From Dyella silvae (GTDB lineage: Bacteria; Pseudomonadota; Gammaproteobacteria; Xanthomonadales; Rhodanobacteraceae), in assembly GCF_026421305.1 (NCBI RefSeq), contig NZ_JAPJBQ010000002.1, positions 1 through 64,000 of the forward strand: DNA of 64,000 bases, read 5' to 3'. Shown here piece by piece: positions 3,522 through 35,430 of this stretch; within the stretch, counting starts at the first letter, position 1, and each line of letters starts with the position of its first letter. A program made the translations under genes and the position numbers. Below the pieces are notes generated by a model that was not told the DNA's origin, made no database searches, and worked only from the letters and a program-made list of their open reading frames with translations.

Positions 3522-3711
3522 GATGCGAGGTGTTTTCCCTGGCAGTTGAACGGGAAACCGGGCGGCAGCTGGGCCTGCCTGGCTCAAAGTTCCAGATCAT
3601 ACCGGGATCTGGTGCTGCCTGCGACTTTTCTTGCGGTCGCAGGGTAATGTGCGCGAGCTCAAAAACGCGCATATCACTGTGTAGATAAAGGCTTTCTTAA
3701 CGAGATTATCC

Positions 3712-3740
3712 TTGCGATCCGGGGGTTTGCTGACTAGACT
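3712..3740 (+). promoter_or_regulatory. Candidate sigma-70 promoter for the mre operon
   Basis: TTGCGA at 3712-3717 and TAGACT at 3735-3740 are separated by exactly 17 bp, each matching four of six consensus bases, about 43 bases upstream of mreB. Predicted by eye only. Confidence 0.4.
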
Positions 3741-3758
3741 GGCCCGCTTACTTTTTAG

Positions 3759-4829
<1,071 letters not shown>

Positions 4830-28710: not shown

Positions 28711-29451
28711 ATGGCGATCAAGATCGAAAAGAAGATCAAGGGCTACAACGTCGTAAAGCCCGAGGACAAGGCCGCGTCCGCCGCAGCACCCGCCCCGGCC
28801 GCTCCGAAAGAAGCGCCCAAGGCCGAAGTCATCCAGATGCACGAGAGCCTGGAGCGCCCCGAGACGCTCGTCGGCTCCACCTACAAGATCAAGTCGCCGC
28901 TGTTCGAGCACGCGTTGTACGTCACCGTCAACGACATCGTGCTCAACGCCGGCACGCAGTATGAGCAGCGCCGCCCCTTCGAGATCTTCATCAACTCGAA
29001 GAACATGGACCACTTCCAGTGGATCGTGGCGCTCACCCGCATCATCTCCGCCGTATTCCGCAAGGGCGGCGACGTCACCTTCCTCGTGGAAGAAATGAAG
29101 GCCGTGTTCGACCCGCGCGGCGGCTACTTCAAGGCTGGCGGCGTCTACATGCCCAGCATCGTCGCCGAGATCGGCGCCGTCATCGAGCAGCACATGAAGA
29201 TGATCGGCCTCATCCACGACCCGGAGATGGACGAGTCCACCCGCAAGCTCATCAACGAAAAGCGCGCTGCTTATGAAGCGGCTGCCAACGGCAAGAGCGC
29301 CAAGCCTGCCGCTGAAGCAAGCGCTGAACCCACCAACGCCAACGGCTTCCCGCCTGGCGCCACGCTGTGCGCCAAGTGCAATACGCAGGCGCTGGTGCTG
29401 ATGGATGGGTGTCAGACTTGCTTGAATTGTGGCTATAGTAAATGCGGCTGA
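28711..29451 (+). CDS. nrdJb: Class II ribonucleotide reductase accessory/C-terminal subunit NrdJb
   Basis: This 246-residue protein corresponds to the C-terminal part of class II ribonucleotide reductases. It has an Ala/Pro-rich N-terminus, a TSCPD-like domain (LYVTVNDIV to IFINSKNMDHFQWIVALTRI), and a cysteine-rich tail with CAKCNTQ and CQTCLNCGYSKC. In the split Pseudomonas enzyme NrdJb is required together with NrdJa, its terminal cysteines being implicated in re-reducing the active site. It follows nrdJa but is separated from it by the histone-like gene and a REP-like element. Confidence 0.9.
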   Translation: MAIKIEKKIKGYNVVKPEDKAASAAAPAPAAPKEAPKAEVIQMHESLERPETLVGSTYKIKSPLFEHALYVTVNDIVLNAGTQYEQRRPFEIFINSKNMDHFQWIVALTRIISAVFRKGGDVTFLVEEMKAVFDPRGGYFKAGGVYMPSIVAEIGAVIEQHMKMIGLIHDPEMDESTRKLINEKRAAYEAAANGKSAKPAAEASAEPTNANGFPPGATLCAKCNTQALVLMDGCQTCLNCGYSKCG

Positions 29452-29472
29452 TGCCGACATATTAAATAGATG

Positions 29473-29500
29473 AAAGGCGACTCAAAGTCGCCTTTTTTTT
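29473..29500 (+). terminator. Terminator after nrdJb
   Basis: AAAGGCGACT and AGTCGCCTTT pair around a 3-base loop and are followed by a run of Ts, 22 bases after the nrdJb stop. It separates core genes from the accessory region that follows. Confidence 0.88.
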
Positions 29501-29534: not shown

Positions 29535-30566
29535 ATGGACACTAAAATTGTCACTCTATACAACAACAAGGGCGGAGTTTCCAAAACGACGACCCTGTTC
29601 AATCTGGCTGTTTATCTTTCTATCACGGGTAAGCAAGTCCTGATCGTAGATTGCGATCCCCAGTGCAATGTTACCGAGTTGTTTTTTGCTGCTACCGAAG
29701 ACTCTGATAGTCCGGACATAGATTTACCCGGAACGTCCATTTATCAGGCTCTTCTGCCCCGATTCAAAGGGCAGCAGGCCGTAATTGATCAGAAATCAGT
29801 TGAGTTGGTTCCGCATGCTTTGTATCAGAATTTGTCGCTCTTTAAGGGGGATCTAGAGTTCGCGCGTGCGGAGACATACTTCGGTACTGCGTGGAATCAA
29901 GCAATCACCGAAAACATCCACGAAAAGAACTCCTATGTGGTCTTTGAGAGACTTCTTCGTGCGCTTGGCAATGAGAGATCCTTTGATTACATACTGTGCG
30001 ACGTCGGGCCTAGCACGGGTGCTATTAGTCGTACCGTCATATTGAGTTGTGATGAGCTGGTTATCCCTCTGGTTCCCGATCGGTTCTGCTATCAAGCAGT
30101 TAAGCTGCTTGGGTCGATTATTAAGGAATGGGTGGATCGGCACAAAATAATAAGCGCTTCGCTCGTTCCATTTGAGATTACTCCGTTTGTTGGTGAGCCT
30201 AAGCTTGCGGGCACAGTTGTTCAGAACTTTAAGGTTCACAGTGGTGCAAAGGCTAAGCAGTCCTACATAAAATGGCAGGACAAGATCACGCAGCAAATTA
30301 AGACGTCACTAATTGGCCCGGGTGCACTTACGCCGAAGGCGGAGTTCGACGAAAACAACCCATACACGGCATCTATTAGAGATGTAGCGGTTCTTGCACC
30401 GATCGCTCAGATGTTCGGACGAGCGATATTTGACATCCAAAAAGAACATACGCGGGAAGCTTCAACGGACGGAAGCATGTACTACGGGTCCGTTTGGACT
30501 CCATGGGAGGAGCGCATGGATGCCTACAAGAAGGAAATAGCAAAGCTTGCCGAGGCGATTTCATGA
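29535..30566 (+). CDS. ParA/Soj-like ATPase (deviant Walker A)
   Basis: This 343-residue P-loop ATPase of the ParA/MinD class has the deviant Walker A motif KGGVSKTT (residues 12-19, signature Lys12), the A' motif DCDPQCN (39-45), and Walker B ILCDVGPS with Asp156. The C-terminal third has no recognisable domain. There is no ParB gene or parS-like cluster nearby, so plasmid-type partition is unlikely. Base composition is clearly more AT-rich than the core genes before it, suggesting horizontal acquisition. It overlaps the next gene by ATGA, so the ATPase and the cyclase-like protein are almost certainly co-translated partners. Their joint function is unknown. Confidence 0.88.
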   Translation: MDTKIVTLYNNKGGVSKTTTLFNLAVYLSITGKQVLIVDCDPQCNVTELFFAATEDSDSPDIDLPGTSIYQALLPRFKGQQAVIDQKSVELVPHALYQNLSLFKGDLEFARAETYFGTAWNQAITENIHEKNSYVVFERLLRALGNERSFDYILCDVGPSTGAISRTVILSCDELVIPLVPDRFCYQAVKLLGSIIKEWVDRHKIISASLVPFEITPFVGEPKLAGTVVQNFKVHSGAKAKQSYIKWQDKITQQIKTSLIGPGALTPKAEFDENNPYTASIRDVAVLAPIAQMFGRAIFDIQKEHTREASTDGSMYYGSVWTPWEERMDAYKKEIAKLAEAIS

Positions 30567-31237
30567 ATCCCTCCTATGCCTACTGTGCGCTAATAGATGT
30601 TCTAGGCTATCGCAGCAGGTTGAAGGGCGATCAAGAGAGCGGCTCTTTTGCCTTCAAAGATGATTTGGAGGAGGCCCTGAGATGCTTCGATGGAGTCAAT
30701 TCGGCAGTATTCGGTGTTCATGCGATTTCAGATACCGTCATATTGACATGCACCACGCATGCAAATTTCATTGAATTCCTTCAGGTCATTAAGTCCGTTT
30801 TCTTGGCTTTTCTGAAGAGAGGTCTGTTTGTTCGCGGTGGAATTGCCTATTCGAAGCATTTTCAAAATAACAAACTAACTTACAGTCATGCGATCGCGCG
30901 ATCCTATGAGCTTGAATCCTCTAGGGCGATACATCCTCGTATCGTAATAGACGAAAACATCATCCAGATGCACTCAGGTCCCGGCAGTACAGTTCAATTG
31001 CGTAAGGCCGATTTAGTTGCTCAGCAGAATGGCGTGTACTTTCTTCACGTTCTGGCTGACCCACAGTGGCCCGCGATCTATATGTCCGCCAAGGCTGCTT
31101 ACGAGCGCGACAAGAATGGACTGATCGCTAATGAGGCAGCATTGGGTAAGCACGTTTGGTTTGAAGAGTATCTCCGTACCTTTGTTCCCACGGAGTCGAA
31201 ATTCGAAGCCTATATAGAGCGTGCCAGTCTTTACTGA
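30563..31237 (+). CDS. Class III nucleotide-cyclase-like protein
   Basis: I propose that this 224-residue protein has the fold of class III nucleotidyl cyclases. ALIDVLGYRSRL (Asp12) fits the first metal-binding strand, AISDTVILTC (Asp57) the hairpin carrying the second metal Asp, VRGGIAYSKHF (90-100) the RVGI-type strand, and AIARSYELESSRAIHPRIVI (110-129) the segment that in cyclases reads VNxAxRLE...G.I.IS. All are visible in the right order and spacing; the assignment is inference, since overall similarity is low. It overlaps the ParA-like gene by four bases. Activity, if any, and nucleotide choice (cAMP, cGMP, cUMP, cCMP) are unknown. Confidence 0.6.
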   Translation: MNPSYAYCALIDVLGYRSRLKGDQESGSFAFKDDLEEALRCFDGVNSAVFGVHAISDTVILTCTTHANFIEFLQVIKSVFLAFLKRGLFVRGGIAYSKHFQNNKLTYSHAIARSYELESSRAIHPRIVIDENIIQMHSGPGSTVQLRKADLVAQQNGVYFLHVLADPQWPAIYMSAKAAYERDKNGLIANEAALGKHVWFEEYLRTFVPTESKFEAYIERASLY

Positions 31238-31254
31238 GCTTACAAAAGCAGAAC

Positions 31255-31300
31255 TAAAGGGGCGGAGGCAGTTAAATTAGCTAAAACCTCCGTTCACAGG
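31255..31300. repeat. Degenerate copy of palindromic repeat family A
   Basis: TAAAGGGGCGGAGGCAGTTA is followed by a decayed inverse arm (ACCTCCGTTC). It is a diverged copy of the perfect elements at 32747 and 34194. Confidence 0.6.
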
Positions 31301-31336
31301 ATTTGTCTTTAGTTGTAATTGGGCTAGTGGCCATCT

Positions 31337-32044
31337 ATGGAAAATAAAGGAAGCGGAAGTCCGTATCCGTTCATTGCAAAGCTGTGCACCTGGCCGCTAG
31401 TGGTTGGGTTCTTCTTCGGCATGGGCTTTGTAATTTTCGTTGTGTACCCACCTCACGCAGGTTGGGGTGAAGGTGAGAAATGGGGTGATATTGCTACGTG
31501 GTTTGCGGGCTTCGCCGGAGCGGCTGCAGCGTTAGCCACCTATTACACGGCGAGAACGGCCATCCGAGTTGCGATGCTTCCGCTTCGTCAGGCCGAGGAG
31601 TTTCGCGCCGCAAAGGCGTGGAATGTTGGAAATGCCATTGCTGACGAGCTCATGTCGTGTCTCATACATTTCCATAGCGTCGTCGATGGCCTCGGATTTG
31701 CTGCGGACACCGGGTTGATAGGAAGAACTCGAACTAGCGCAAAGAGGCTAAAACTTGAAGGCATACCCATGATCGAAAAGTTCATGGATCAGCTCGATTG
31801 TTTTCAGGATGAAGACGGGAGAAGGATCGTTCGAGCCTGCTTCGCAACGCTGCATGCGCGGCAGCGCCTGAGGATGGTTGCCGAAGTAGATCTCAAGGAA
31901 CTCCGTCGGTGGGCGGGCGAGAGTTACTACACATTCATAGCTAATCGAACTGTCGAAAGTGCAAGGCTGGCGATCATCGAGATAGAGGCGGCAATGCCGT
32001 CGCTGACTCGAATGGGTGTGATTCTGCAGAATCGAGACACGTAG
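31337..32044 (+). CDS. Two-TM membrane protein of unknown function
   Basis: This is a 235-residue protein with two N-terminal membrane helices (about residues 19-38 and 52-71), the second within WFAGFAGAAAALATYYTA, followed by a long soluble, mostly helical region rich in Arg and Glu. I recognise no domain. It lies 100 bp downstream of the cyclase-like gene on the same strand, separated by a degenerate repeat, so it may be either a third member of that unit or an independent gene. The layout of two TMs plus a cytosolic domain is common for membrane effectors, but no nucleotide-binding motif is visible. Confidence 0.6.
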   Translation: MENKGSGSPYPFIAKLCTWPLVVGFFFGMGFVIFVVYPPHAGWGEGEKWGDIATWFAGFAGAAAALATYYTARTAIRVAMLPLRQAEEFRAAKAWNVGNAIADELMSCLIHFHSVVDGLGFAADTGLIGRTRTSAKRLKLEGIPMIEKFMDQLDCFQDEDGRRIVRACFATLHARQRLRMVAEVDLKELRRWAGESYYTFIANRTVESARLAIIEIEAAMPSLTRMGVILQNRDT

Positions 32045-32059
32045 GGCCGGGCGCAAATA

Positions 32060-32112
32060 AGGGGTCAGAGTGCTTTTCCCTTAGGCTAAAGGGGACGGTG
32101 GTAGTTAAGTCA
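32060..32112. repeat. Composite element: half family B plus half family A
   Basis: AGGGGTCAGAGTGCTTTTCC (family B left arm) runs directly into TAAAGGGGACGGTGGTAGTT (family A left arm). Neither right arm is present, so this looks like two truncated elements joined together. Confidence 0.65.
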
Positions 32113-32140
32113 GCTAGCGCTAGAAGGGGAGATGTTGGGC

Positions 32141-32749
32141 ATGGCGGCGATTGGTGCAGAAGGGTTTTCGCTAAAGCGGCTACGCAGATACTGGCGACAG
32201 TATTTAGCGGATGCTTACTGGCAGGCGATCATCCTTGGTGGATTTGTTTGCGTTGGTATCTACCTGAGCCTTCTATCCAATAGCGACGCGTTAGCCAACC
32301 TGTCCGTATCGCTCATGGATGGCCGTCCGTGGATGTTTCTCCTCGTGGCTTGGTGCGCAGTGAGATTCGTTCAACTGGCGAGCCATTCATTCCTTCCAGC
32401 AAAGATTCGAGCGAGCAGATTTCCAAGGCGTATTTGGAAGGCATCGATTGATGCTCTGACCGTAGCAATTGGTTCGTTTATCGGAACCGTCCTGGCCTTG
32501 CGGGCTTATGGCATAAGGCGTCCAGATGATCTTTGGGCAATCTTTCTCGTGCTGTTCATAGCGCTTTTCCATCTGTTTGCCATCGCCCAAGGCATGTATG
32601 GCCACCGGTTTTTGAATGTCAGCACGATTCACAGGCGCTGGCTTGGCTTGGCCTTTGCTGCTTCCCTCCTGGCGATTCTCGCGGTGAGTGGCAATATGAC
32701 GGAGCGAGAGAAGAGCCCACATTCCTGCCCCGTAGTGAAAGCGCAGTAA
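32141..32749 (+). CDS. Polytopic membrane protein of unknown function
   Basis: This is a 202-residue protein with about five hydrophobic helices (around AIILGGFVCVGIYLSLL, WMFLLVAWCAVRFV, ALTVAIGSFIGTVLA, AIFLVLFIALFHLFAI and LAFAASLLAILAVSG). No known domain was recognised. The ATG at 32141 is preferred over the one at 32132 because AAGGGGAG is then at normal spacing. The stop codon TAA is the first three bases of the family A palindrome at 32747, so the gene ends exactly where the repeat begins. Confidence 0.6.
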   Translation: MAAIGAEGFSLKRLRRYWRQYLADAYWQAIILGGFVCVGIYLSLLSNSDALANLSVSLMDGRPWMFLLVAWCAVRFVQLASHSFLPAKIRASRFPRRIWKASIDALTVAIGSFIGTVLALRAYGIRRPDDLWAIFLVLFIALFHLFAIAQGMYGHRFLNVSTIHRRWLGLAFAASLLAILAVSGNMTEREKSPHSCPVVKAQ

Positions 32750-32795
32750 AGGGGGCGGAGGTAGTTACGCCAGTTAACTACCTCCGTCCCCTTTG
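32747..32795. repeat. Family A palindrome, intact copy
   Basis: A 49-bp near-perfect palindrome: TAAAGGGGGCGGAGGTAGTT, a short centre, then AACTACCTCCGTCCCCTTTG. It differs from the copy at 34194 at only two central positions. It contains the stop codon of the preceding gene and could act as its terminator. Confidence 0.85.
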
Positions 32796-32832
32796 TTAGG
32801 CGCATTTCGCACAATCAGAAAAGGATGCTTCG

Positions 32833-33135
32833 GTGAATCGAGCACAACGTCGTCAGCTGCTTCTTTATATGCGTCTTCGGGATCGCGATGTATCCGTAGC
32901 CGCTATGTTTCTCTACAACTGGCGTATCTACGTCGTCATTCTTGCCGCCGCCATTGGTTCGGTTGGTGCCATGCTCTATTTGGGCCAGTGCTTCTGGGCA
33001 GGGCTGCTTGCGGTGGCATACGTCTCCATCTTTCTGAGGGACGCGGGCCAATTCCTGAAGATGAGGCGGACGTGGCCGTTGACCCGGGAGCTCCTCGATT
33101 GGTCGAAAGTGGAGCAGAAGATGGCCGAGATGTAA
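32833..33135 (+). CDS. Small two-TM membrane protein of unknown function
   Basis: This is a 100-residue protein starting with GTG after AAGGA at seven bases. A basic N-terminus (RAQRRQLLLYMRLRDRD) is followed by two membrane helices (IYVVILAAAIGSVGAML and WAGLLAVAYVSIFL) and a charged C-terminus. Nothing more can be assigned. It sits between an intact family A repeat and a small lipoprotein gene. Confidence 0.55.
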   Translation: MNRAQRRQLLLYMRLRDRDVSVAAMFLYNWRIYVVILAAAIGSVGAMLYLGQCFWAGLLAVAYVSIFLRDAGQFLKMRRTWPLTRELLDWSKVEQKMAEM

Positions 33136-33236
33136 TCTCAGGCGGCTTCATTTCTCGAACAAGCGATGCGGGTAGGGCGGGGCGTTGAGCCCGGCTCGTG
33201 ACGACAGAACTGGGGAGCAGTCATGTTGGAGGGGGT

Positions 33237-33617
33237 ATGCGTTTTCTGAAAGTCACCCGATGGCTCGCGGTTTTCTTCGCCATCGCGCTCGCCACAGCCT
33301 GCGCCTTCAAGCAGGAAGCAGATGCCAAGTTTGGCGACCAGCACTTCAAGACAACCATTGCGCTTGTCGAGCTCTACAAGTTGCGGCATGGCAGCTACCC
33401 CGAGACGCTTCATGACCTGACCTTTACAGGGGATTGGGATGCCATCGCATTGAACTCTGTGAGCTACCGTCGCGTGGGTGACGGTTATGAACTCGACATT
33501 GCACGCGGCTGGGTCGGGCAGCCGACGCTGACGTATCCGCCGGAATTCTGGAAGGGCCTGGGGCTGGTTGCGTCCAATGTCGGTGGTGCGCCGGCTGCTC
33601 CGCAACAGGGGAAATAA
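33237..33617 (+). CDS. Small lipoprotein of unknown function
   Basis: This 126-residue protein has a lipoprotein signal (WLAVFFAIALATACAF) with a plausible lipobox Cys. The mature part contains IALVELYKLRHGSYPETLHD, which resembles the loop after the N-terminal helix in type II secretion/pilin-like proteins, but the rest does not match clearly. The start at 33237 is supported by a strong GGAGGGGG site; the GTG at 33198 would put extra residues before the signal. The gene ends four bases before the repeated segment at 33621. Confidence 0.6.
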   Translation: MRFLKVTRWLAVFFAIALATACAFKQEADAKFGDQHFKTTIALVELYKLRHGSYPETLHDLTFTGDWDAIALNSVSYRRVGDGYELDIARGWVGQPTLTYPPEFWKGLGLVASNVGGAPAAPQQGK

Positions 33618-33620
33618 GGG

Positions 33621-33708
33621 GGTGGAGTGCTTTTCTCCAAGGTTCTTGGCATCGCTGACTAGCGGCGAAAAGGAAGCGCTCGCGCCTTTCTCTCCACGGA
33701 TCGCCGAG
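33621..33708 (+). repeat. 88-bp duplicated segment, copy 1
   Basis: This segment matches 36514-36601 at 74 of 88 positions without gaps. Its left edge (GGAGTGCTTTTCTCC) is the family B repeat motif. In this copy the position equal to the GTG start of the gene at 36575 reads GCG, so it cannot initiate there. Confidence 0.8.
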
Positions 33709-33744
33709 TAAAGGCGAGTAAAGGGGACCTAAATGGGAGTAGAC

Positions 33745-34182
33745 ATGAAAGTACGTATTGCGTGGGCCGCATCGTTGATGTTCACGGGATTGGCGATTGC
33801 TGGGAGCATGCCAGTGGCCTACAACAACCTATCTCCGGGCGGCCGAACAGCGCTGGATCAGAAGGCCCACGACGCGCTCGACAGCCAGTACAACATCATC
33901 GATTTTGACCTGGCTAAGCACCACTATACGTCGCCGCACCCGGTGGCCGGGTCTATGCCGCACGCCCCAGAGAATGCTGATGGAACTCAGCTTCACGGCT
34001 ATGTCATGTTGGCATACGTCGTGACTACCGATGGACGCGCGGCGTCGCCAACAATCGTCAAGTGTACGGCTCCCAAGCTATGCGATTTAGCCATAGAGGC
34101 GACGCGTGGCTGGCGCTTTGAGGCTGCCACACTTGACGGAAAAACAGTAAGCACCATTGCCCTTCAAGAGTTCAATTTTTGA
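33745..34182 (+). CDS. Exported protein with a TonB-C-terminal-like domain
   Basis: This is a protein of 145 residues with a signal peptide (WAASLMFTGLAIAGS). The second half, GYVMLAYVVTTDGRAASPTI through ATRGWRFEAATLDGK, follows the pattern of TonB C-terminal-type domains (V.f.v..dG.v....v..s......a..a...wrf.Pa...G). It has no N-terminal TonB helix or Pro-rich spacer, so it is not a canonical TonB. Similar stand-alone domains are common in Xanthomonadales. The start at 33745 directly precedes the signal peptide; the family A palindrome follows 11 bases after the stop. Confidence 0.65.
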   Translation: MKVRIAWAASLMFTGLAIAGSMPVAYNNLSPGGRTALDQKAHDALDSQYNIIDFDLAKHHYTSPHPVAGSMPHAPENADGTQLHGYVMLAYVVTTDGRAASPTIVKCTAPKLCDLAIEATRGWRFEAATLDGKTVSTIALQEFNF

Positions 34183-34193
34183 TTGAATTTCAG

Positions 34194-34242
34194 TAAAGGG
34201 GGCGGAGGTAGTTAAGTCAGTTAACTACCTCCGTCCCCTTTG
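34194..34242. repeat. Family A palindrome, intact copy
   Basis: This is the same 49-bp palindrome as at 32747, with two differences in the centre, in the same position relative to the upstream gene. Confidence 0.85.
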
Positions 34243-34274
34243 TTTGCGGCCTTTTGCAGGGAGAAGATACGAGT

Positions 34275-35018
34275 ATGGAAGAAGTTGTCTGCTCAAGCTG
34301 GACAGATTTCAAGAGTCGGATTATCGCTGATCTATTTCACGGGGAGCGATTCTCTCGCGGAAGATTTTTGTTCCGAGGCCAAGGCAGCGCATCTTGGTCG
34401 TTGATGTCTTCTTTTGATCGCTGGTATCAGGGATATAGTGGTAAGTTGGCCACCAAAGCCAAGACTGCTGATCTTCTGTTGGATGCTTTTGCTAAAGAGT
34501 GTGAACTCGAGGATATATCCTCTGATGTTCGGAAAAATAAGCTTCTCATGCTTAGCCTCGCACAGCACCACGGACTTCCGACTCGTCTCCTTGATTGGAG
34601 CGAGAGCCCTTACGTAGCTGCATTTTTTGCGTTCAGTGGACACATTCGGCACATAGTGCCTTTGGAAAAGCATGTCGCAATCTGGGTGCTTGACAGTGCC
34701 GACGAGTGTTGGAGTTCGGAGTTCGGTTGCGAGATTGTCGATGTGCCAAGTTTTGGCAATGAGCGGATTAGAAATCAGCATGGGCGCTTTAGCTATTTGA
34801 AAGCACCATCGGATTCACTCGAACAATACGTTGCTCAATTTCCTAATAGTTCAAAAGCGTTGTTAAAGTATCTGGTGCCTGTGGCCGGCGCTGGCCACGC
34901 GATGGCCGATCTCGATGCAATGGGGTTGAGCCACTCAAGGATTTATCCAGGGCTGGGAGGGAATGCCAAGGCGGCGGAAGTGCGCGTGGTGTTAAGTATG
35001 TACGGTGAGGGGTCTTGA
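34275..35018 (+). CDS. FRG-domain protein
   Basis: This is a 247-residue cytosolic protein with an FRG domain: FLFRGQGSASWSLMSSFDR near the N-terminus and LAQHHGLPTRLLDWSESPYV in the middle are the defining motifs. FRG domains occur in stand-alone proteins of genomic islands and prophages and have been linked to anti-phage functions; biochemistry is not settled. The start at 34275 has GGAGAAG at good distance, better than the upstream in-frame ATG. Codon use is AT-richer than the core genes. It is flanked by a family A palindrome on the left and a family B half-element on the right. Confidence 0.82.
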   Translation: MEEVVCSSWTDFKSRIIADLFHGERFSRGRFLFRGQGSASWSLMSSFDRWYQGYSGKLATKAKTADLLLDAFAKECELEDISSDVRKNKLLMLSLAQHHGLPTRLLDWSESPYVAAFFAFSGHIRHIVPLEKHVAIWVLDSADECWSSEFGCEIVDVPSFGNERIRNQHGRFSYLKAPSDSLEQYVAQFPNSSKALLKYLVPVAGAGHAMADLDAMGLSHSRIYPGLGGNAKAAEVRVVLSMYGEGS

Positions 35019-35025
35019 GAAAAAA

Positions 35026-35050
35026 AGGGTCAGAGTGCTTTTCCCTTAGG
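35026..35050. repeat. Family B half-element
   Basis: AGGGTCAGAGTGCTTTTCCC plus TTAGG is the same left arm as at 32060; it begins a few bases after the FRG gene stop. Confidence 0.65.
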
Positions 35051-35094
35051 TGAAAAGCCTCCGATCCTTTTCTATGCCTCGACGCGCCGAGGCC

Positions 35095-35259
35095 TCAAAA
35101 GGAAATGGGCGGCGCTTGCGCGGCCGCCCATCTGTCGTCCATCCAGCCGTCGTCAGTGGGCTGTTGGTGCTCCGCCAGTAGGGCGGTCGCTCGCTCCGGG
35201 GAGTCATGCGGATCTCTCGGGAGCAGGGCCAGATTAAGCGAGCGATTGTTGTATCCCCA
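35095..35259 (-). pseudogene. Possible remnant of a small gene
   Basis: On the minus strand a 54-codon open stretch has protein-like composition (SLNLALLPRDPHDSPERATA is a representative part) but no start codon: it opens just after a stop codon. I do not recognise the family. The 430 bp between the FRG gene and higA otherwise contain only family B repeat pieces (including a decayed one near 35328). Confidence 0.2.
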
Positions 35260-35410
35260 TCAGAAGGATCTTTAGAAGTCGTAAAAATCTGCCGGCCGCG
35301 CAAAAAAATGCAGAGCTTGAAAGCGTAGGGTCAGACTTCTTTAGAAGGGATGAGGGCACGCCGCCGCTTTGGCTTATGAAACTGGGGTGTTAGCAAGCGA
35401 GCGCGGAAGA

Positions 35411-35430
35411 GAGGGCAGAGTGCTTTTCTG
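35411..35430. repeat. Family B half-element, degenerate
   Basis: GAGGGCAGAGTGCTTTTCTG matches the left arm of family B; no right arm follows. Confidence 0.5.

Follow-up and report, generated by a model that had tools for sequence, protein, structure and literature searches.

A ParA-like ATPase and a class III cyclase-like protein form a conserved, mobile two-gene module in Dyella silvae and distant hosts

What joins a ParA-like ATPase gene to a gene that matches no described family, and why do the two lie directly behind a core gene of their host? The question is raised by a pair of overlapping genes in the window, by which we mean the whole stretch of 64,000 nucleotides analysed here (Dyella silvae, NCBI RefSeq assembly GCF_026421305.1, contig NZ_JAPJBQ010000002.1, positions 1 to 64,000 of the forward strand). 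A first-pass annotation of this DNA had proposed a candidate system in which a ParA-like ATPase is the fixed partner of a protein resembling class III nucleotide cyclases. We find that the two genes make up a mobile module conserved across distant hosts, and we lean, with modest confidence, towards its being a conflict module (antiphage or toxin-antitoxin-like) that is controlled by the ParA and has a putative cyclase-fold effector. The two genes are as follows.

29535..30566, + strand: ParA/Soj-type ATPase, 343 amino acids (AAA_31 match; deviant Walker A motif KGGVSKTT)
30563..31237, + strand: class III cyclase-like protein, 224 amino acids (from profile comparison; D12 and D57 at metal-binding positions)

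The end of the ParA gene overlaps the start of the second gene in the letters ATGA, as had been described. The mechanical open reading frame of the second gene begins at 30494, and the 224-residue product is read from the ATG at 30563 that overlaps the ParA stop.

The finding is carried by the regularity with which these two genes occur together. A collection of species genomes was scanned with a profile built from four paired ParAs, and the best 80 of at least 561 confirmed relatives were analysed. A cyclase-like gene lies directly 3' of the ParA gene in 42 of the 43 top relatives among these 80 (loci L015-L057), the single miss (L055) being cut by a contig end, and beside none of the next 37 (0/37, several of them on short contigs). 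A wide score gap separates the two groups, with E values up to ~1e-57 in the first and from 1e-41 in the second. Of 45 pairs listed, 44 have a distance of -8 to +12 bp from ParA to cyclase-like gene, and 20 of these show the 4-bp overlap. The distances are biased towards short gaps, being measured to whichever start codon lay closest to the ParA stop, and Dyella sedimenti is counted twice (two rows are doubled: L026 and L008 are one record, and L005 and L036 come from one genome). Apart from the pair genes, no gene family is present in more than four of the 43 loci. The pairing is far beyond chance. Thus the co-occurrence search that the first-pass annotation had asked for finds the pair conserved together, and the ParA is indeed the fixed partner of the second gene; a ParA/Soj ATPase fixed beside an enzyme-type gene, as found in 42/43 loci, is the arrangement by which a ParA-effector dyad is recognised.

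The 43 records comprise 31 from Pseudomonadota, seven from Bacillota, two from Thermodesulfobacteriota, two that are unplaced and one from an archaeal metagenome-assembled genome (MAG), the last being a MAG contig, which can be misbinned. In two trees the paired ParAs form one clade of 45 rows, with Shimodaira-Hasegawa-like approximate likelihood ratio test (SH-aLRT) supports of 98 and 99; ParAs more than 92% identical were left out, together with L005, L097 and L008, and L234, being on a long branch, was excluded from the second. The window ParA clusters with those of Sideroxydans, Grimontia and Thalassotalea, inside a set of 12 that includes Paenibacillus and the archaeal MAG, and transfer of the pair between distant hosts is therefore likely. 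This horizontal spread of one ParA clade across phyla agrees with the earlier impression of an acquired module. Closer to the window, cyclase-like matches were found in 4/233 sampled genomes of the family and in 12/369 of the class, its own genome included in both counts, and the strongest three of those 12 are paired.

The window ParA matches AAA_31 in Pfam (E 5.7e-27), and K12, G13, G14, K17, T18, D39, D41 and D156 are retained in 40/40 aligned paired ParAs. Its host genome has a single ParA of this kind, two further places matching over ~45 residues only, and a long branch lies between the window-type ParA and the tree outgroup, made up of one or two further ParAs from that genome. Retention of the ParA signature Lys and the Walker residues in every aligned sequence would also suit a positioning or partition device, in which an orphan ParA places the cyclase-like protein or DNA much as McdA does. 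We regard such a device as very unlikely, given the patchy distribution just described and the HEPN, SIR2 and RelA/SpoT proteins with which related ParAs pair (see below). Further, no third gene recurs beside the pair as a possible ParB among the 43 loci, a survey to which no ParB model was applied.

In direct searches the second protein reached the cut-off of no Pfam family (best E 0.11), had no match in PADLOC or NCBIfam with E allowed up to 1, and had no relative in the PDB with E allowed up to 10 (as a profile, a single chance match at E 1.5). Nothing in the phage records matches it, and neither it nor its 42 aligned relatives match HEPN. Its assignment comes from comparing profiles with hhalign. 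A 78-protein profile (43 paired proteins plus 35 other relatives) aligned over 124-125 columns with a profile built from nine PF00211 domains, at a probability of 71% when the window row served as reference and of 55% for the L011 row, against at most 2.1% for 100 column-shuffled nulls of the L011-row profile and 0.2-0.3% for the ParA, which served as control. Smaller profiles gave weaker values (1.3% for the paired set alone, 27% for a middle-sized set), the match being clear only with the 35 further relatives.

Residues D12, S56, D57, R91, G92, H99, S108, E118, P125, R126 and K196 are invariant in the 43 paired proteins. In the active site of class III cyclases two aspartates bind metal, and an asparagine and an arginine act on the transition state. 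D12 and D57 align with both metal-binding aspartates in 43/43 paired proteins; at the positions aligned with the transition-state residues, the Asn is found in 0/43 and the Arg in 1/43, an assignment that depends on the profile alignment and on the residue roles known for cyclases in general. Because the transition-state residues are missing, the putative partner enzyme is probably not an ordinary cyclic AMP or cyclic GMP cyclase. The description of the second gene as class III cyclase-like therefore holds for the profile homology and both metal-binding aspartates but not for the transition-state Asn and Arg.

One of the invariant residues, H99, also separates paired from unpaired proteins. 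It occurs in 43/43 of the former and 0/32 of the latter, near-copies included (L148/L149 and L151-L153); these 32 remain from the 35 "solo" relatives after three (L139-L141, identical to L161, L162 and L160) were recognised as paired. Because it is universal in the paired proteins and absent from the 32 unpaired ones, H99 is, on this distribution, tied either to the ParA partnership or to an altered reaction. No partner is common to the unpaired relatives, near-copies of one locus or pairs of loci aside. One single-gene relative (L011:5974-6825) immediately follows dsr1 on a plasmid of Agrobacterium, and others are on viral contigs (L142-L157).

A cyclase-like protein near a membrane protein recalls Pycsar, and the first-pass annotation had suggested that the next gene downstream might encode the effector.

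31337..32044, + strand: membrane protein gene, 235 amino acids, downstream of the pair and probably independent of it

In Pycsar-like signalling, infection would lead the second protein to make a cyclic nucleotide, which a distinct receptor (this membrane protein, for instance) would sense, and the ParA would sense or regulate. The class III-like profile with both metal-binding aspartates is consistent with this, as is the position of the membrane protein gene, which begins 100 bp after the pair and whose product has two membrane stretches as judged by eye. However, the transition-state residues are absent, none of the PADLOC matches sought, Pycsar included, was obtained for the second or third protein, and no third gene exceeds four of the 43 loci, so that a neighbour of the PycTM or PycTIR type does not recur. 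The third protein (31337-32044) had no Pfam, PADLOC or NCBIfam match, and its family is absent among those recurring in at least three of the 43 loci. The membrane protein was rejected as a fixed effector because it does not recur beside other pairs, and we consider the whole Pycsar-like scheme quite unlikely.

Relatives of the window ParA are informative for what stands in the slot of its partner. We examined 116 of 117 such loci from species genomes and viral contigs (L090 has no ParA open reading frame), five of them with a cyclase-like gene. Directly 3' of these ParAs we found HEPN-type genes in 25/116 loci and RelA/SpoT-domain genes in 5/116; two of three scanned HEPN-type examples pass the PF18735 cut-off, with the third just below, and both scanned RelA/SpoT examples pass PF04607. 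In genome G044 (L244:3671-5664), at the same Dyella site as the pair, the gene of a ParA from this family and a SIR2 gene overlap, the SIR2 protein matches ThsA and KomC (PDB 8wc0, 8zsf), and SIR2 fills the slot in 3/3 viral relatives of that ParA (L278-L280). A phylum sample of 30 ParA loci yielded three HEPN, three SIR2, two RelA/SpoT and two cyclase-like partners, one of the last being the window. Short gaps or overlaps are seen in all four partner types (HEPN -17 to 23 bp in 28 loci, RelA/SpoT 2 to 55 bp in seven, SIR2 -8 to 16 bp in six). When partners are mapped on the tree, the cyclase and SIR2 types occupy one clade each, and there are two label changes for RelA/SpoT and three for HEPN. 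Because the slot interchanges among cyclase-like, HEPN, RelA/SpoT and SIR2 proteins, the cyclase-like protein would be the effector and the ParA its regulator.

Other arrangements were seen in the same loci. ParA-SIR2 dyads also occur in L288, L298 and L307, and a ParA followed by a RelA/SpoT-domain protein in L059, L071, L078, L082, L094, L285 and L305, the first five of which have a further shared gene upstream. A recurring upstream gene, by eye a phage repressor-type regulator, accompanies the ParA at 24 viral-contig loci; these regulator-linked ParAs mostly stand without any of the four partners (L165, L167-L169, L173, L192, L197-L201, L205-L208 and others).

The settings of the pair include phages. 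Among the best 80 viral contigs, the best five carry it, and the viral loci L158 and L161 are near-copies of the genome loci L015 and L039. At L158, terminase and portal genes adjoin, and the pair sits beyond the portal gene, which by gene order is presumably the gpQ side of P2. The gpQ-gpA stretch is a defence hotspot in Escherichia coli P2-like phages, according to one report (PMC9122126). L159 has filamentous-phage genes, L160 a DnaB-like helicase and NinB, and L162 a spanin; across the viral pair contigs the neighbours are P2-like, filamentous and lambda-like, and the flanks of L161 give no phage type.

In Dyella the pair occupies a variable chromosomal site, for which the following features of the window are relevant.

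28711..29451, + strand: core gene 5' of the pair, in 20/20 genus genomes; the insertion site, outside the module
29472..29496, + strand: hairpin resembling an intrinsic terminator, 3' of the core gene and 5' of the pair
34278..35018, + strand: FRG-domain protein, PADLOC candidate PDC-S15; a neighbour only, in the same variable GC-poor stretch

The core gene, which is presumably NrdJb-like, is followed by the hairpin and then by the pair, whose GC content (0.48 for the ParA gene, 0.47 for the second) is well apart from the 0.60-0.63 of the three preceding genes; the placement after a terminator and the higher AT content had both been read correctly. The DNA following this core gene was compared from 18 of the 19 other genus genomes, two of them short. 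Only G053 among the 18 has the pair at this site, in a divergent form whose ParA is 39% identical, and at the limits used none of the 18 shares DNA with 29535-35000. Other Dyella strains have there a SIR2 protein with a related ParA, deaminase-domain proteins and DUF262 proteins, all defence-like by eye. Several of the settings in which the pair occurs look like defence. The FRG-domain protein matches FRG at E 4.9e-22 and PDC-S15 at E 1.8e-58. Between the genes 3' of the pair (window 31254-35428) lie repeats resembling repetitive extragenic palindromes, composed of a GGAGGTAGTTAA palindrome and a AAGGGGTCAGAGTGCTTTTC element; they are also present at L241:5583-11175, and related copies occur in genome G060. 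In G060, where nothing matches the second protein, the NrdJb-like 3' end stands in three copies with short stretches between them (L241:441-740, 1725-2024, 3573-3872), resembling repeated insertion at that end.

Prophages and a variable site would likewise be expected of an addiction (toxin-antitoxin) module that only retains mobile DNA and has no antiphage role, and the dyad of HEPN (MAE_18760) and ParA/Soj was postulated to be a toxin-antitoxin system in 2013 (Anantharaman et al., PMC3710099). The pair is, however, also found on chromosomes directly after ribonucleotide reductase (RNR) genes, and the neighbours at the Dyella site, albeit chosen by eye, are of defence type. We judge pure addiction unlikely.

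The RNR genes themselves suggest another role, that of a nucleotide-supply regulator linked to RNR. In 6/42 loci the pair is immediately preceded, at 5-367 bp, by an RNR gene of the same orientation, and likewise in the window (83 bp). For these counts a Pfam batch scan named RNR chains without assigning members, and the search queries came partly from the same loci; the RNR names of the window genes are presumed. The six (L027, L030, L032, L036, L040 and L057) belong to two pseudomonads, three sphingomonads and Dyella sedimenti, the gap shrinks to 5 bp in Sphingomonas L032, and the RNR-adjacent pairs fall at five places in the ParA tree. RNR was upstream in 0/20 control regions and, among 112 other ParA loci, appeared only at L061, ~1 kb off. 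With an assumed three such ends per 4,000 genes, a rate fixed post hoc, five of 42 would have a probability of ~2e-10. Yet no RNR was found in the other 36/42 loci, a terminator-like hairpin separates the genes in the window, and different strains of Dyella carry different genes at this site, as would be expected of an insertion hotspot. Such a hotspot explains the adjacency more simply, although a functional link may exist; a role of the pair in regulating nucleotide supply we hold to be highly improbable. Repeats of the RNR 3' end in direct orientation on both sides of the pair were sought and rejected, there being none in the window, L027, L030, L032, L036 or L040; L057 has one 29-nt GC-rich match at 83%, probably by chance.

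We return to the mobile, ParA-controlled conflict module as the reading we lean towards. We infer for it a division of roles, an activity, a trigger and a protective effect against phage that would fit together in the following way. The ParA would act as a nucleotide switch, probably dimerising on ATP, and would hold its cyclase-fold partner inactive or position it. Infection, or loss of the module, would disturb the ATPase, and the partner would then be released or activated, acting as the effector, a metal-dependent enzyme that works on nucleotides. Phage defence by the pair is plausible. Several observations weigh against this reading. The cyclase-like protein has single-gene relatives that lack a ParA, 20/30 ParA loci of the phylum sample have no HEPN, SIR2, RelA/SpoT or cyclase-like partner, and PADLOC models found 0/43 paired second proteins. 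The four Dyella-site proteins searched against PDB (SIR2, deaminase-domain, DUF262 and an ATPase) were hand-picked by eye from 18 genomes and are thus a selected rather than a blind sample, and the ATPase gave a Rad50-type match of a generic P-loop only. PADLOC families near 20 pair loci number 26 in 140 proteins versus 51 in 136 control proteins (at 1e-10, with controls from the same genomes, counting families rather than proteins, and with many matches that in our judgement look like housekeeping cross-matches); the defence-island enrichment that had been proposed as a check was therefore not seen, and this line of proof was dropped.

If the reading is right, bacterial conflict systems would gain an effector of cyclase fold together with a shared ATPase switch, and one ParA family would serve modules with four different enzyme partners. 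ParAs, known for placing DNA and cargo, could then gate toxicity, of which this module offers a direct test. More tentatively, and at a level we would call doubtful, the ParAs of this family may be a general control unit of bacterial immunity with interchangeable enzymes (RNase, NADase, RelA/SpoT-type and cyclase-fold). The cyclase-fold member would in that case be a new effector class whose two-metal site does not make cyclic nucleoside monophosphates and serves, for example, nucleotide destruction or nucleotide transfer onto a target.

Among known systems, ParABS, Soj and McdA share with the window ParA a common ATPase family and the signature Lys; unlike them, the window-type ParA has a fixed enzyme-like partner, and no ParB was seen. 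Pycsar joins a class III cyclase, PycC, to PycTM or PycTIR (PMC11224242). The window pair resembles it in the class III-like profile, the two metal-binding aspartates and a possible conflict setting, and differs in having a ParA in place of a recurring receptor-effector gene, no transition-state residues and no PADLOC match. MinD/ParA-like domains, predicted to be inactive, are noted in other conflict systems in a further report (PMC7159879). The SIR2 NADases ThsA and KomC differ in effector fold and lie outside the window's module; such a SIR2 fills the partner slot of a related ParA, also at the Dyella site. We found no recognisable description of a ParA-cyclase pair among the matches listed from the open-access literature searched, mostly at the level of titles and the starts of abstracts. 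A ParA dyad of another type, HEPN with ParA, had been described already (PMC3710099). With that dyad the window pair shares its make-up, an enzyme gene coupled to the gene of a ParA/Soj-type ATPase, and related ParAs here carry HEPN. The partner there is an RNase and here cyclase-like, and the tree places the two sets of ParAs in different clades. Because HEPN matches neither the second protein nor its 42 relatives, the window pair is, as far as these comparisons go, a variant of the ParA/Soj-effector dyad rather than a HEPN-type member.

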